Assembly: GCA_002862745.1 (NCBI GenBank)
Contig: PKDX01000021.1
Span: 100,523 to 145,575, forward strand
Direction: 5' to 3'
DNA from: Bacteroidota bacterium
Lineage (GTDB): Bacteria > Bacteroidota > Bacteroidia > Chitinophagales > UBA8649
DNA: 45,053 bases
A program made the translations under genes and the position numbers. The notes under the pieces were generated by a model. The model searched no databases. It saw only the letters and a program-made list of their open reading frames with translations, and had not been told where the DNA came from. Of this stretch, positions 1-5,677 are shown piece by piece; positions within the stretch are counted from its first letter, which is position 1; every line of letters begins with the position of its first letter.

Positions 1-173
1 ATTTGTTATCCATTGACAGGGATTGCATAGTATCCGACAAACGGTTTACCCACGTCAATAAATGGCTTGAGTCCAACGGATACGATATACATTTAGTAGA
101 TTACAGCGCAATTGGAAAGTTAGGGGGGCTATTGAGATGTTCTACGCTGCCCTTGGAAAGACAATTAGTATGA
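1..173 (+). CDS. C-terminal end of an arginine deiminase / amidinotransferase-family protein (partial)
   Basis: The reading frame is open from base 3 to a TGA at 171-173 and gives about 56 C-terminal residues. The tail contains the motif GGLLRCSTLPLER, which matches the catalytic-cysteine end of arginine deiminase, DDAH and amidinotransferase proteins (usually GGxxRCxTxPLxR). The start lies outside the window, so neither the exact substrate nor the family branch can be fixed. The stop overlaps the next gene's ATG as ATGA (170-173), so the two genes are probably co-transcribed and translationally coupled. The family call rests on this motif and on the related downstream gene. Confidence 0.8.
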   Translation, partial: LLSIDRDCIVSDKRFTHVNKWLESNGYDIHLVDYSAIGKLGGLLRCSTLPLERQLV

Positions 174-1090
174 CAAAGCAACGTAGCCGGCGTATTCTTA
201 TGATACGTCCAACCACTTTTCGAAAAAATGAAGAAACGGCAGTAAATAATGCCTTTCAGCAAGATGCTTCGGATTCCTCAGATGTACTTAGTCAAGCGCA
301 AGCAGAATTTGACAACCTTGTCGAAGTCCTGGAAAAAAACTTGATTGACGTTATCGTAATCTCAAGCATCAAGGAGGAGGACACCCCAGATGCCCTATTC
401 CCTAACAATTGGCTCTCCTTTCATTATGATGGCCATGTTGTGCTCTATCCCTTGTTCGCAGAAAATCGAAGAAGGGAACGCAGAGAGGAAATAATCGACC
501 AAGTAAGTGATAACAGCTATAAGCCTAATAACAGGCTCATCGATTTAACATCCTATGAAGACAAAGCGTTGTTTTTAGAGGGCACTGGAAGTATGGTGCT
601 CGATCGCGTACACCAGATTTGTTATGCAGCCATTGGTCCAAGGACCCACCAAGAAGTGCTCGACGTTTGGGGAGAGCGTTTAGGCTACAAGATTGTTTCT
701 TTTGAATCGCACCAAAACAGCCATGGCGATGATTTAATCTATCATACCAACGTCATGATGTCTATTGGCACAACCTGGGCTGCAATATGCGTGGAATCGA
801 TCCGTGACTTGGTGGCTTGTGAAAAAATTCTTGATCAGTTAATGAGCAGCAATAAGGAAATCATTGACCTCTCTTATGAGGAAATCTATGGTTTTGGAGG
901 GAACATCCTCGAGATAGAAAACCAACGAGGTGAATCCATCATTGTAATGAGTGAAACGGCCTTTAACGCCTTAAAAGTGGACACTAAAACCAAACTGAGT
1001 CGCCACGGTAAAATTGTATTTGCTCCTATTCCAACCATAGAAAAACTTGGTGGCGGTAGCGTTCGATGTATGATTGCGGAGTTATTTTAA
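170..1090 (+). CDS. ctlX: CtlX-type citrulline/arginine-deiminase-like hydrolase
   Basis: A 306-residue protein of the amidinotransferase/DDAH fold, most like the citrulline utilization hydrolase CtlX. Visible features are a substrate-loop motif around residues 74-81 (DALFPNNW), an acidic site LEGTGS (136-141), the catalytic His192 in HTNVMMS and the catalytic Cys300 in GGGSVRCM near the C-terminus. No signal peptide is seen, so it is presumably cytosolic and acts on guanidino or ureido compounds. An in-frame ATG at 137 would add 11 residues that lie inside the upstream gene. The ATG at 170 is preferred because it makes an ATGA overlap with the upstream stop and gives a normal family N-terminus. 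The 3' end overlaps the convergent DAHP synthase gene by 9 bp. The substrate is inferred from family membership. Confidence 0.85.
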   Translation: MTKQRSRRILMIRPTTFRKNEETAVNNAFQQDASDSSDVLSQAQAEFDNLVEVLEKNLIDVIVISSIKEEDTPDALFPNNWLSFHYDGHVVLYPLFAENRRRERREEIIDQVSDNSYKPNNRLIDLTSYEDKALFLEGTGSMVLDRVHQICYAAIGPRTHQEVLDVWGERLGYKIVSFESHQNSHGDDLIYHTNVMMSIGTTWAAICVESIRDLVACEKILDQLMSSNKEIIDLSYEEIYGFGGNILEIENQRGESIIVMSETAFNALKVDTKTKLSRHGKIVFAPIPTIEKLGGGSVRCMIAELF

Positions 1091-2092
1091 TCGTCGGCCA
1101 ACACCTGGAGCCATTTTACGAAGGCTTGCGGCTAACTCAGAGAACATCTCTGGATTGATTTGCTGGGCGGCATCACTTTTCGCCTCTGACGGATTGGGGT
1201 GACATTCAATCAATAAACCATCAATTCCCATCGCAAAGGATGCTCGGCTTAAATCCGCTACGCCAAATCGATAACCTATGGCATGGCTTGGATCAACCAC
1301 AATCGGCAAATTACAATGCTCTTTAAGCCAGGATACTCCACATAAGTCAAGCGTAAAACGGGTGGCCTTCTCAAAGGTCCGTATACCGCGTTCGCACAGA
1401 ATCACATTGGGATTACCTAACGAGAGAATAAACTCAGCGGCTTGAACAAACTCTTGTAAGGTCGAATTAAAGCCTCGTTTGAGTAATACTGGTTTACTTT
1501 GGTTACCACAAGCTCTTAAGATTCCATGATCATACATGGCTTTGGCCCCAATTTGAATGATATCAGCATGCTCAATAACATCTTGTACATGGCTTGCATC
1601 TCGGACTTCTGTGATTACCTTAAGATCATTAGCATCCGCTACTTCCCGCAGAATCTGTAAACCTTCAAGCCCTAATCCTTGAAATGAATAAGGCGATGTT
1701 CTTGGCTTATAGCATCCCCCACGTATAATGCGCACATCTTGCGTCTTACATAACGCAGCAATAGTTTCGATTTGCGCATTACTCTCCACAGAACAAGGTC
1801 CAGTCATGAGCCAAGTTGAATTGTCCTCCCCTCCTATAACCAAGTCCTCGGCAATACGAACTTCTGCTTTCTGATCTTGATAGCTTCTTGATGCAAACTG
1901 TATATCAGTATCCAAGACGACATAATCCTCAGCATACTGTGTTAAATCTGCAGGAAGCTCCTTCACCTTAGACGATAAGGTTAAGATAAATCCTGTATGC
2001 CATTGAGTATTGTGCGTAAGGATTGCCTGATGCGTCTGGGCTAACGTCTTGGCCTCATCATGGCCAATGGTTGTTTTGAGATGTACGATCAT
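1082..2092 (-). CDS. aroF: 3-deoxy-7-phosphoheptulonate (DAHP) synthase, type I-beta
   Basis: A 336-residue cytosolic enzyme that condenses phosphoenolpyruvate and erythrose 4-phosphate, the first step of the shikimate/aromatic pathway. The N-terminal ~75 residues look like the small ferredoxin-like regulatory domain of Thermotoga-type DAHP synthases. The barrel follows, with GPCSVES (PEP-site region), IRGGCYKPRTSPYSF, the lysine-bearing LLKRGF and a late VDPSHAIGYR metal/active-site segment. There is no chorismate mutase fusion. It is the last gene of a tightly packed minus-strand run, 30 nt after the epimerase/CBS gene. Its stop lies inside the end of the convergent ctlX gene. KDO-8-phosphate synthase is the nearest alternative family, but the N-terminal domain and SPYSF motif favour DAHP synthase. 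Confidence 0.93.
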   Translation of the reverse strand: MIVHLKTTIGHDEAKTLAQTHQAILTHNTQWHTGFILTLSSKVKELPADLTQYAEDYVVLDTDIQFASRSYQDQKAEVRIAEDLVIGGEDNSTWLMTGPCSVESNAQIETIAALCKTQDVRIIRGGCYKPRTSPYSFQGLGLEGLQILREVADANDLKVITEVRDASHVQDVIEHADIIQIGAKAMYDHGILRACGNQSKPVLLKRGFNSTLQEFVQAAEFILSLGNPNVILCERGIRTFEKATRFTLDLCGVSWLKEHCNLPIVVDPSHAIGYRFGVADLSRASFAMGIDGLLIECHPNPSEAKSDAAQQINPEMFSELAASLRKMAPGVGRRLK

Positions 2093-2122: not shown

Positions 2123-3124
2123 TTAGAGACTATGGGCTAAATAGTTAAAATGAACCAAACCAGTAAATTCTTCCTCATCGATTACGGGGAGGAGATTTAA
2201 AGGCATGGCATGACGATTAAGGAGATCAATCATCTGTGAAAAGGTGGTCTCCGATTGTATAGATAAGGGATTATCATTCCACCAAGGCCTATTTGTATTC
2301 CCTGCTTTTTCTTGTAGCATGGCTCGTCGTAAGTCGGCATTTGTAGCCATACCAAGGCATTTACCCTGATCAACTACCATAAGCATACCCAATCCACCTC
2401 GATCAAGTACTTCTAGGGCATCCCAAACCGAACAATTTGATGGTATCTGAGCTACACTTTTTGCATCAATCATAAAATGCTTGGCTTGAACATCCACTTG
2501 TATATCAGGATGCAATAAATTGAGATAAGCCTGATAGGGATTATCAGAACGCATTAAATGAGCTCCCACCACAACATTAGAGATTCCTAAAATCTTAAGC
2601 ACTGAAGCAACCTCTGGACGAATACCCCCGTCAATAAGAAAAGAGGTTCCCGCCAACGCTCTGCGCCAACGGCCTATCACTTGAAACGCCTCATTGGGAA
2701 AGGCCCCACCGCTTTTCCCAGGAATCGTTGTCATTATGAGTAGAGCATCTAAGGACTCCATTTTTTGGGGCTGTAGATCAGCTAACGAAGTCCACCTATA
2801 GGCCAAGCCTTTTTTAACTCCCTGATAGGAAGATGGAATATTCTCGAAGGGATCAGAAGAAAGATCTTCCCCCTGAAAGTAAACACATGATATCGGACAG
2901 TCACCAAGAATTGGCCATAAATCATCCGATTTGGTCAGAACAGCATGAATCTCTACAATAAATCGGCCGTCTTCCTTAAGATGGGCTAAAACATCTTTTG
3001 CCATCATCAGGTTAGCGTCCGTTATATCGAGGTGGATATAAAAAACATTAAGCAATTCCAGTTTGGATAGACCGCTTTTCCAATCTTGACTTTCTTGAGC
3101 AAAAACTGAAGCGTGTACCCTCAT
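2123..3124 (-). CDS. Ribulose-phosphate 3-epimerase-like barrel fused to a CBS-domain pair
   Basis: A 333-residue protein with two parts. Residues ~1-210 resemble ribulose-5-phosphate 3-epimerase. The metal/catalytic positions appear kept: HLDITD (His/Asp pair near residue 31), VEIHAV (His), MTTIPGKSGGAF (in place of the usual MTVxPGFGGQ) and FLIDGGI (late Asp), followed by a phosphate-site-like VVVGAHLM. Residues ~218-333 form two CBS motifs; LGMATNADLRRAM and LPVIDEEEFTGLVHF resemble the CBS tail of KpsF/KdsD arabinose-5-phosphate isomerases. The gene starts 1 nt after the ABC transporter stop and sits 30 nt before DAHP synthase. Canonical Rpe proteins (~215-225 aa) lack CBS domains, so this may be a nucleotide-regulated or divergent sugar-phosphate epimerase. 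The fold is well supported; the exact substrate is not. Confidence 0.75.
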   Translation of the reverse strand: MRVHASVFAQESQDWKSGLSKLELLNVFYIHLDITDANLMMAKDVLAHLKEDGRFIVEIHAVLTKSDDLWPILGDCPISCVYFQGEDLSSDPFENIPSSYQGVKKGLAYRWTSLADLQPQKMESLDALLIMTTIPGKSGGAFPNEAFQVIGRWRRALAGTSFLIDGGIRPEVASVLKILGISNVVVGAHLMRSDNPYQAYLNLLHPDIQVDVQAKHFMIDAKSVAQIPSNCSVWDALEVLDRGGLGMLMVVDQGKCLGMATNADLRRAMLQEKAGNTNRPWWNDNPLSIQSETTFSQMIDLLNRHAMPLNLLPVIDEEEFTGLVHFNYLAHSL

Positions 3125-3125
3125 C

Positions 3126-4934
3126 TTAGGCCATTTGACGTTGCTGTAATTCTACCATAAGGTGGTAACGTTCTTTATTGGCCATCAGGCTTTCATGATT
3201 ACCAATCTCTTCTATTTTACCATGATGTAGCACAACTATCTTAGTCGCATTTCGAACCGTGGAAAGACGATGAGCAATAACAATTGTTGTTCGATTTTGC
3301 ATTAATCGCTCAAGGGCATCTTGAACAAGAGACTCCGATGCGCTATCCAAGGATGAAGTAGCCTCATCAAGCACTAAGATCTTAGGGTCTTTTAGAATAG
3401 CTCGTGCGATGGCGACACGCTGCTTTTGACCGCCAGATAGCTGCACCCCTCTTTCCCCAACCATGGTGTTTAATCCTTCAGGTAAACCATCAACAAACTC
3501 CATTACGTTAGCCTTTTGAGCCGCATTGATAATCTCTTCTGCTGAGGCATTCGGGCAACCATACGCAATATTATCTTGAATGCTGCCTCCAAAAAGAACC
3601 ACATCCTGAGGTACTATTCCAATATTCTGACGAATACTCTCCACTGGATAATCCTTTATTGATGCTCCATCAATGGTTATTTCTCCAGCATAATCAGGAT
3701 AGAATCCCGCCAATAGCTTAACCATTGTCGACTTTCCTGAGCCACTTGGTCCAACGATAGCCACATGATCACCTTTATCAATCTGAAGGCTAATACCATC
3801 TATGACAGGTATATCCTGGCGTGTTGGATAGGAAAACGATACGTTCTGAAAAGCAATGGATCGCTCGAATTGCATCGGCGGAGGAAGATCCGCATCAATA
3901 TTCATTTCGGTATCCTGGGATAATATTTCTTGCACGCGTTTTGTAGCACCAAATGTGCCTAGTAACACCACATAATAGTTCCCAAGGCTAGCAATAGCCC
4001 CTCCTATTACACCAGTTAAAAGAATAAACAAGGTCAAGTCACTTACAGATAGACCATCATATTTCACCATGAGTGCTCCACGCCATAGAACGGTCATCAG
4101 CGAGCCAAACATGAAGAAAATGATAAACACTACGAATACAGCACGAACCTTTCCGTATTTCATGGCTATAGAAATCATATCATTGATTGCCAATCGATAA
4201 CGCTGCATTTCAAATCGCTCATTGACAAATGCCTTTACCGTAGTGTATTGAGAAAATGCTTCTTCAGCAATCACATTCGTCTTGGCTAGGGATTCCTGAC
4301 GTTTTGAGGAAAAGCGCTTCACATACATACCTAAAGCCATCGCTACCAGAACCACAACAGGTATAATACTCAACATAAAAAGTGAAAGCTTGGGAGCCTC
4401 AATGAAAATGATGATAAGTCCTCCAAAAAAAAGAATGATCTGTCGAATGAGCTCTGGCAATGTATTGGAAAAGGTGGACTGCAGTTGCTCAATATCTGCT
4501 GTGAGCCGGGAAATTAGATCACCTGTGCGATTTCGTTCAATAAAGGAGACGTCTAGGGCAATAATTCGCTGAAACAAATCACGACGTAGATCTGCTATTC
4601 CATACTCACCGACCTTAGTAAAAAGGTAGATTCGTGTATAGGATACAACAGCCTGAAAAATCAATAACCCAGCAAAGACATAGATGTAGGTCTCAACCCC
4701 AGCTTGCGGGATGAACTTCGTCAAGATATGCTCATTTCCTTCAGCGGCCTGTGCCATTTCTCCAGCAAGCTTCATAACCACTAAGAACATACTCGCTGAG
4801 ATGCCTAACAAGATAAGCCCAGTAACAAAGGAAAAACGGTAACGCCAAACATAGCCCATGACATAGCGCGCTGCATTCCACTCTGCCTTTGAAGGGCGTC
4901 CTCTTTTAGGAGTTTCTCTTCTTCGGCGACTCAC
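3126..4934 (-). CDS. MsbA-like ABC exporter, fused permease/ATPase
   Basis: A 602-residue half-transporter, expected to act as a homodimer in the inner membrane. An N-terminal six-helix type I exporter domain (~30-330) contains the helix-coupling segment IAEEAFSQYTTVKAFVNE. The C-terminal ATPase carries Walker A GPSGSGKST (~residue 395), signature LSGGQKQRVAIARA (~500), Walker B ILVLDEATSSLD (~520) and the H-loop IVIAHRLST. Lipid or lipid-A export (MsbA) is a family-based guess and other hydrophobic substrates are possible. The start codon is GTG at 4932-4934, overlapping the bshB1 stop by 4 nt (GTGA), which implies translational coupling. The N-terminus is very basic (RRRRETPKRGRP), as is common before the first helix. 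Confidence 0.88.
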   Translation of the reverse strand: MSRRRRETPKRGRPSKAEWNAARYVMGYVWRYRFSFVTGLILLGISASMFLVVMKLAGEMAQAAEGNEHILTKFIPQAGVETYIYVFAGLLIFQAVVSYTRIYLFTKVGEYGIADLRRDLFQRIIALDVSFIERNRTGDLISRLTADIEQLQSTFSNTLPELIRQIILFFGGLIIIFIEAPKLSLFMLSIIPVVVLVAMALGMYVKRFSSKRQESLAKTNVIAEEAFSQYTTVKAFVNERFEMQRYRLAINDMISIAMKYGKVRAVFVVFIIFFMFGSLMTVLWRGALMVKYDGLSVSDLTLFILLTGVIGGAIASLGNYYVVLLGTFGATKRVQEILSQDTEMNIDADLPPPMQFERSIAFQNVSFSYPTRQDIPVIDGISLQIDKGDHVAIVGPSGSGKSTMVKLLAGFYPDYAGEITIDGASIKDYPVESIRQNIGIVPQDVVLFGGSIQDNIAYGCPNASAEEIINAAQKANVMEFVDGLPEGLNTMVGERGVQLSGGQKQRVAIARAILKDPKILVLDEATSSLDSASESLVQDALERLMQNRTTIVIAHRLSTVRNATKIVVLHHGKIEEIGNHESLMANKERYHLMVELQQRQMA

Positions 4935-5677
4935 GATAAACTGAGTATATTTTGAAGGCCTAATGGTCGATTACTCACAAATCCCTCCGCATAGTTAGCA
5001 CCTATTAAATTGCCGAATTCCGCATGGCGGCCCTTTAACATTTCAAGAAAGGTGGGCGTAGAAATAAAGGTCTTTTTATCCGAGTTATCAAACGCTTTAT
5101 CCTTTGTGTTCATCGAGTGAAACTGTGTCGAATAGGCCATAATGGCTTCCCACTTTTTATCCCAAAAGTCAGAGATGTTTACCACAAAACTTGGTTCAAT
5201 ATAGTCTGATTGGATGTAGTGGTATACCGCCTTGGGTCTATGTGCTTGCTGCACATTGCCCTGATCATCTCGAGTTTCTATTTTGACAAGTCCACTTAAA
5301 AAAGCTGCCTCACGAACAAGCTTTGCTGCCTGAGGATGATCGGGATGCCTATCCTTTACTGCGTTGGCCAAAACAATCTGGGGACGAGCACTTCGAATGG
5401 CTCGTATAACCGCCAATTTACTTTCCATAGAATCATCGATAAAACCATCAGAAAGTCCAAGATTTGCGCGGAATGTGACCCCTAAGATTTCCTGGGCCTT
5501 TGTTGATTCCATTTGTCGGCTCTCCTTATTACCCCGGGTGCCCAGCTCGCCATAGGTCAAATCCACAATTCCGGTAGACTGACCCTGTGCATTGGCAACA
5601 AGTAAGGTACCTCCACAACTGAGTTCCACATCATCTGGATGAGCCCCAAAAGCTAAAATGTCTACCGGGCGTATCAC
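4931..5677 (-). CDS. bshB1: Bacillithiol biosynthesis deacetylase BshB1
   Basis: A 248-residue PIG-L/LmbE-family zinc deacetylase. BshB1 removes the acetyl group from GlcNAc-malate to give GlcN-malate, the second step of bacillithiol synthesis. The zinc motif AHPDD lies at residues 12-16 and HPDHPQAA at 111-118, giving His13, Asp16 and His114 as expected ligands. YGELGTRG and the C-terminal KGRHAEFG match the BshB1 branch seen in Bacteroidota. The start is GTG at 5675-5677, sharing one base with the TAG stop of the START-domain gene; no better in-frame ATG lies nearby. A thioredoxin reductase two genes upstream suits a thiol-redox role, although bshA and bshC are not in the window. Confidence 0.9.
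   Translation of the reverse strand: MIRPVDILAFGAHPDDVELSCGGTLLVANAQGQSTGIVDLTYGELGTRGNKESRQMESTKAQEILGVTFRANLGLSDGFIDDSMESKLAVIRAIRSARPQIVLANAVKDRHPDHPQAAKLVREAAFLSGLVKIETRDDQGNVQQAHRPKAVYHYIQSDYIEPSFVVNISDFWDKKWEAIMAYSTQFHSMNTKDKAFDNSDKKTFISTPTFLEMLKGRHAEFGNLIGANYAEGFVSNRPLGLQNILSLS

Follow-up and report, generated by a model that had tools for sequence, protein, structure and literature searches.

The sugar Kdo links lipid A with the remaining lipopolysaccharide and is near-universal in the lipopolysaccharide of Gram-negative bacteria. The textbook route to Kdo 8-phosphate consists of KdsD and KdsA (PMC9478572), and rescue of a kdsD gutQ mutant of E. coli K-12 is an established assay for the formation of D-arabinose 5-phosphate (A5P) (PMC11301363). 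The window analyzed here, i.e., the whole stretch of 45,053 nucleotides from a Bacteroidota genome, encodes a protein (Rpe-CBS) in which a barrel of the ribulose-phosphate epimerase (Rpe) type is fused to a pair of CBS domains, and beside it a protein resembling DAHP synthases (c1). The comparisons described below make it likely that Rpe-CBS and c1 replace KdsD and KdsA in Kdo synthesis, with the CBS pair as a sensor of CMP-Kdo or a nucleotide.

Table 1. Features of the Rpe-CBS and c1 genes in the window
Feature	Position	Strand	Basis
Rpe-CBS fusion gene, 333 aa	2123..3124	(-)	ORF, Pfam matches, homologues, structure model
Rpe-like (beta/alpha)8 barrel, residues 1 to about 205	2510..3124	(-)	2fli alignment, invariance in 62 sequences, fold match
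CBS pair of KdsD/KpsF type, residues about 213-333	2126..2488	(-)	TIGR00393 match, profile search
c1 (336 aa), putative Kdo 8-phosphate synthase that may also act as DAHP synthase	1082..2092	(-)	Profile scores, linkage
GAKAMYD motif of c1, in the position of GAR in DAHP synthases and of IPAFLCRQTDLL in KdsA	1529..1549	(-)	Alignments

The open reading frame of Rpe-CBS starts with ATG and comprises 333 codons. Pfam matches to the protein were Ribul_P_3_epim over residues 3-189 (E 2.6e-15; 56.8 bits, cut-off 21.1) and a CBS domain (E 3.4e-10), and the best NCBIfam match of the tail was the kpsF model TIGR00393 (residues 212-325, E 8.9e-9). A SIS domain was absent from Rpe-CBS in the Pfam scan, and the score against the Rpe equivalog model TIGR01163 was 38.3 bits, below the cut-off of 212.6. 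By domain content, Rpe-CBS is neither an Rpe, as it scores below the equivalog cut-off and lacks two of the loop motifs, nor a KdsD, as it has no SIS domain. Full-length homologues are present in 21 of 61 genomes (the window's own genome and its relatives) and in 80 GTDB loci, mostly of Bacteroidota, and the fusion is therefore not a product of chance; identity to the homologues outside the window's genus is 23-31%. When a sample of the phylum was searched with profile A2, nearly all of the 395 genomes matched through canonical Rpe or a CBS domain alone, and for this reason the fusion was not counted from this tally; among the matches listed, full-length Rpe-CBS was found only in the window's own genome and in G097. 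The open-access literature, the sole literature covered, yielded no description of this fusion family as an enzyme or of a replacement of KdsD and KdsA in Bacteroidota.

To characterize the two parts of the protein, an AlphaFold model of Rpe-CBS was built from 62 relatives (pLDDT 88.9, pTM 0.87) and searched with Foldseek. The top matches of the barrel were the Rpe crystal structures 2fli, 3ovr, and 3ovq (TMt 0.76-0.77 for 2fli and 3ovr), Rpe and not another TIM-barrel family being the best match, and the first match of the CBS part was 3k2v, the CBS pair of an arabinose 5-phosphate isomerase, with 4o9k close behind. A search of the PDB with the family profile likewise retrieved 3k2v and 3fna, and the best CBS chain, above all other CBS proteins, was that of the arabinose 5-phosphate isomerase 4o9k (E 5.5e-12). 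In the alignment to 2fli, residues H31, D33, H60, and D165 of Rpe-CBS fall on the metal and acid/base residues of Rpe. All four are invariant in 62 Rpe-CBS sequences, as are S6, Q84, E86, G106, M131, T133, P135-G136, S138-G140, G166-G167, and G187. The original prediction had described an Rpe-like barrel with intact HLD (H31/D33), IHA (H60), and LIDGGI (D165-G167) positions and a KdsD-type CBS tail, and these data bear out both parts of that description, the barrel by its Pfam match, fold, and invariant residues and the tail by its matches to TIGR00393, 4o9k, and 3k2v. It had also been right that the MDG and PGFGGQ loops differ, with TDAN and PGKSGG standing in those places. Both loops are remodeled across the family, DCND or ITDA replacing MDGxFVPN after strand 2 and PGxSGG replacing PGFGGQ after strand 6, and the window's genus differs from other Rpe-CBS proteins at several positions (I34, T35, L163, and A188). 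A second, canonical rpe, a point raised by the original prediction, is indeed present in the window's genome (L001) and encodes all of the motifs, so that plain Rpe activity of Rpe-CBS would not be needed; Rpe-CBS retains the catalytic residues of Rpe, but probably not its substrate.

The gaps that had been reported around the fusion, 1 nt to an ABC exporter gene (3126-4934) and 30 nt to c1, were confirmed. The MsbA-like exporter had been thought relevant; however, in no genus but that of the window does it adjoin the fusion, and it was rejected as a functional partner. Upstream of the exporter lies a gene for a BshB1 bacillithiol deacetylase (4931-5677(-); TIGR04001 over cut-off), and a gene for a CtlX-type citrulline utilisation hydrolase (137-1090(+); NCBIfam NF046062 over cut-off) is convergent with c1. 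Linkage was counted in 78 analyzed loci of the 80 GTDB loci: the fusion is linked to c1 in 73, in 72 of which it is directly upstream of c1, and a KdsC-like phosphatase gene is near in 62, usually right after c1. The usual order is thus the fusion, c1 (most often with a 4-nt overlap), and the KdsC-like gene. One genome (G010) has kdsB, rpe-CBS, c1, and a kdsC-like gene in one row on one strand, two more loci (L106 and L115) have a KdsB-like gene near the fusion, and G034, where c1 is on another contig, still has an overlap between the fusion and a KdsC-like gene. The window's genus has no KdsC-like gene directly beside c1.

The relation of the fusion to the known Kdo genes was examined in 57 genomes, 56 of the window's order and G097, of which 22 are fusion-positive (21 by homologue search, and G097 via the profile search of the phylum sample). 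KdsA (TIGR01362 over cut-off) was found in none of the 22 fusion-positive genomes and in 33 of the 35 fusion-negative genomes, the two exceptions being G014, which is without any KdsB match, and G045, in which both KdsD and KdsB are present. Similarly, KdsD (TIGR00393) was found in 0 of 22 fusion-positive genomes and in 30 of 35 fusion-negative genomes, 25 of them over cut-off and five by matches near 1e-50 that cover the SIS part alone and lie beside kdsA. Fisher tests, in which the genomes are treated as independent though they are related, gave p values of 7.9e-14 for KdsA and 2.3e-11 for KdsD, and the switch is visible within single families, namely f8 (G031 and G055 versus G012 and G043) and f14 (G018 versus G033 and G057). 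SIS proteins of the window's genome were considered as a hidden KdsD and rejected, as their sequences resemble those of GlmS, GmhA, MurQ, and a phosphosugar isomerase. Four of the five fusion-negative genomes with no KdsD match belong to family f19 (G023, G036, G048, and G060) and possess KdsA, and A5P can therefore also come from other sources. Among 47 further carriers reached via the GTDB loci, one (G449, a Crocinitomicaceae MAG) has a KdsA over cut-off; this KdsA (L163) is of gammaproteobacterial type, lies on a separate contig, and is probably bin contamination. The carriers include a cultured organism, Brumimicrobium salinarum LHR20 (L049).

The later steps of the pathway are kept in the carriers. 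KdsB-like matches are present in all 22 fusion-positive genomes, most of them over the Kdo cut-off, and those below it, in the window's genus and G004, are divergent, partial, or split. WaaA is present in 20 of the 22, the window's genome included, and is missing in G010 (80% complete) and G097. The KdsB-like gene of the window's genome (L188:5325-6047(-)) scores 105.9 bits against TIGR00466, versus a cut-off of 155.2, and appears to encode a divergent CMP-Kdo synthetase. Since the conserved partners of the fusion are c1 and the KdsC-like phosphatase, and the carriers are without KdsA and KdsD, the Kdo pathway is the natural reading. The original prediction of a regulated epimerase that steers pentose phosphate to DAHP and aromatics does not agree with this pattern, and aromatic synthesis was rejected on co-occurrence as the main role, with the proviso that c1 may also make DAHP.

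By profile scores, c1 exceeds the cut-offs of two DAHP synthase models, NF006421 (360.6 bits, cut-off 335) and TIGR01361 (317.7 bits, cut-off 267.75), and falls below that of the KDO8P synthase model TIGR01362 (113.2 bits, cut-off 314). It keeps the erythrose 4-phosphate motif KPRT[ST], here KPRTS. On the other hand, GAK[AS]MYD occurs in 80 of 80 c1 sequences, and c1 lacks the GAR[NS]xQN motif (mostly GARNSQN) of the DAHP synthases of relatives. In Aquifex KdsA, an arginine in this loop touches the A5P of the next subunit. The c1 proteins form a single clade of their own (SH-aLRT 100), which takes in proteins of G012 and G043, both of which carry KdsA and KdsD but no fusion; there, the c1-type genes (G012:C2:697835-698563, L186; G043:C35:18550-19269, L187) sit between dapF and valS. 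In 13 of the carriers scanned, c1 is the sole PF00793 protein, and the window's genome encodes a separate DAHPS-chorismate mutase protein. In G008, of which 2.17 Mb (nearly the whole genome) was read, aroA, aroB, aroC, and aroK are present along with two KdsC-like places; trpA, trpB, trpC, pheA, tyrA, and kdsD were not found at E 1e-3 in these 2.17 Mb, nor was a type II DAHP synthase motif. This genome therefore combines chorismate genes with no detected genes for aromatic amino acid synthesis. Because no DAHPS-family protein other than c1 was found beside these four aro genes, c1 probably makes DAHP as well in G008, and a dual synthase is the simplest reading there.

In the replacement of KdsD and KdsA proposed here, Rpe-CBS would be a non-orthologous substitute for KdsD that supplies A5P, and c1, derived from DAHP synthases, would condense A5P and PEP to Kdo 8-phosphate in KdsA's stead. 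A KdsC-type phosphatase would then dephosphorylate Kdo 8-phosphate, KdsB would activate and WaaA would transfer the Kdo, and the CBS pair would probably sense CMP-Kdo or a nucleotide as feedback. The substrate, product, and effector of Rpe-CBS are read here from fold, residues, linkage, and co-occurrence, all drawn from sequence. A5P is not supplied by the pentose phosphate pathway, which would explain a dedicated enzyme, and feedback by CMP-Kdo is plausible, because 4o9k, whose CBS pair belongs to this type, was solved with a ligand, CMP-Kdo. Rpe takes a proton from beside the carbonyl and puts it back on the opposite face; in Rpe-CBS, this two-aspartate, metal-assisted proton transfer may have moved one carbon along the sugar chain. 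The reaction would be either a C2 epimerization of ribose 5-phosphate (aldehyde form) to A5P, or a 1,2-isomerization at C1/C2 of ribulose 5-phosphate to A5P, which is the KdsD reaction and accords with the earlier hint, supported here, that Rpe and KdsD share ribulose 5-phosphate. The invariance of both aspartates fits a two-face reaction, but it is no proof, since the aspartates also bind metal. A more specific version is possible but rather doubtful: Rpe-CBS would be a ribose 5-phosphate 2-epimerase that forms A5P in one step from ribose 5-phosphate, with feedback by CMP-Kdo, and in some genomes c1 would act as a dual DAHP/Kdo 8-phosphate synthase for both Kdo and shikimate synthesis; to our knowledge, such 2-epimerase chemistry has no precedent in the Rpe fold.

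It should be noted that several points count against the replacement of KdsD and KdsA: c1 scores as a DAHP synthase and not as KdsA, and keeps KPRT[ST] and not KANRSS; in at least one carrier (G008), it probably makes DAHP too; it occurs together with KdsA and KdsD in G012 and G043; the f19 genomes have KdsA without KdsD; and in the window's genus no KdsC-like gene adjoins the pair. An alternative is a pathway to another 3-deoxy-ulosonic acid instead of Kdo, in which the substrate of c1 would be an aldose phosphate such as erythrose 4-phosphate, provided by Rpe-CBS. The KPRTS motif kept in c1 agrees with such a pathway, as do the KdsC-like protein of L040, for which the KDN-9-phosphatase model scores slightly above the KdsC models, and the divergent, below-cut-off KdsB of the window's genus; however, we regard it as unlikely, given that KdsB is above the Kdo cut-off in most carriers and WaaA is present. 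Furthermore, the pentose phosphate pathway already yields erythrose 4-phosphate and ribose 5-phosphate as intermediates, for which no dedicated enzyme is required, and a dedicated partner enzyme therefore suggests a sugar outside that pathway, such as A5P.

Somewhat less probable again is that a regulated ribulose 5-phosphate 3-epimerase and a DAHP synthase together feed the shikimate pathway, with KdsA missing for an unrelated reason. The curated models do call c1 a DAHP synthase, and the gene content of G008 would be in keeping with this role; however, it would not account for the lack of KdsA and KdsD in genomes that retain KdsB and WaaA, for the linkage to KdsC and KdsB genes, or for the KdsD-type CBS pair, and the window's genome encodes a DAHPS-chorismate mutase protein and a canonical Rpe separately. 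That A5P is instead made by a promiscuous enzyme, for example GlmS, with Rpe-CBS regulating or acting otherwise in Kdo metabolism, is very improbable, for although eukaryotic GFATs can make A5P and rescue an E. coli API mutant (PMC11301363), and the four f19 genomes manage with neither KdsD nor the fusion, the strict replacement pattern and the invariant catalytic residues of Rpe-CBS would go unexplained.

If Rpe-CBS and c1 do replace KdsD and KdsA, many Bacteroidota would use an undescribed route to a sugar needed by most Gram-negative bacteria, and the annotations of these genomes ('second epimerase', 'DAHP synthase') would change. An epimerase fold would have been recruited for A5P synthesis, and the two enzymes would be a clear example of non-orthologous replacement in a pair, in which the regulatory CBS domain was retained.

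Compared with KdsD, KpsF, and GutQ, Rpe-CBS has the same type of CBS pair, but its catalytic domain is an Rpe barrel and not SIS; in addition, it adjoins kdsC-like genes, as kdsD adjoins kdsC in E. coli K-12, and by co-occurrence it would occupy the pathway position of KdsD. With Rpe (PF00834, TIGR01163), it shares the barrel fold and the conserved S6, H31, D33, H60, M131, D165-GG, and G187; however, its beta2 loop is short and without MDGxFVPN, PGFGGQ has become PGxSGG, Q84 stands where the genome's own canonical Rpe has His, a CBS pair has been added, and the fusion coexists with that canonical Rpe. The partner c1 belongs to the same superfamily as KdsA (TIGR01362) and, by mutual exclusion, would hold the same place in the pathway, but it has KPRTS for KANRSS and IGAKAMYD for the IPAFLCRQTDLL loop. 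Like the type I-beta DAHP synthases (NF006421, TIGR01361), c1 passes both cut-offs and has KPRTS; in contrast to them, it forms its own clade and carries GAK[AS]MYD where the compared DAHP synthases have GAR.
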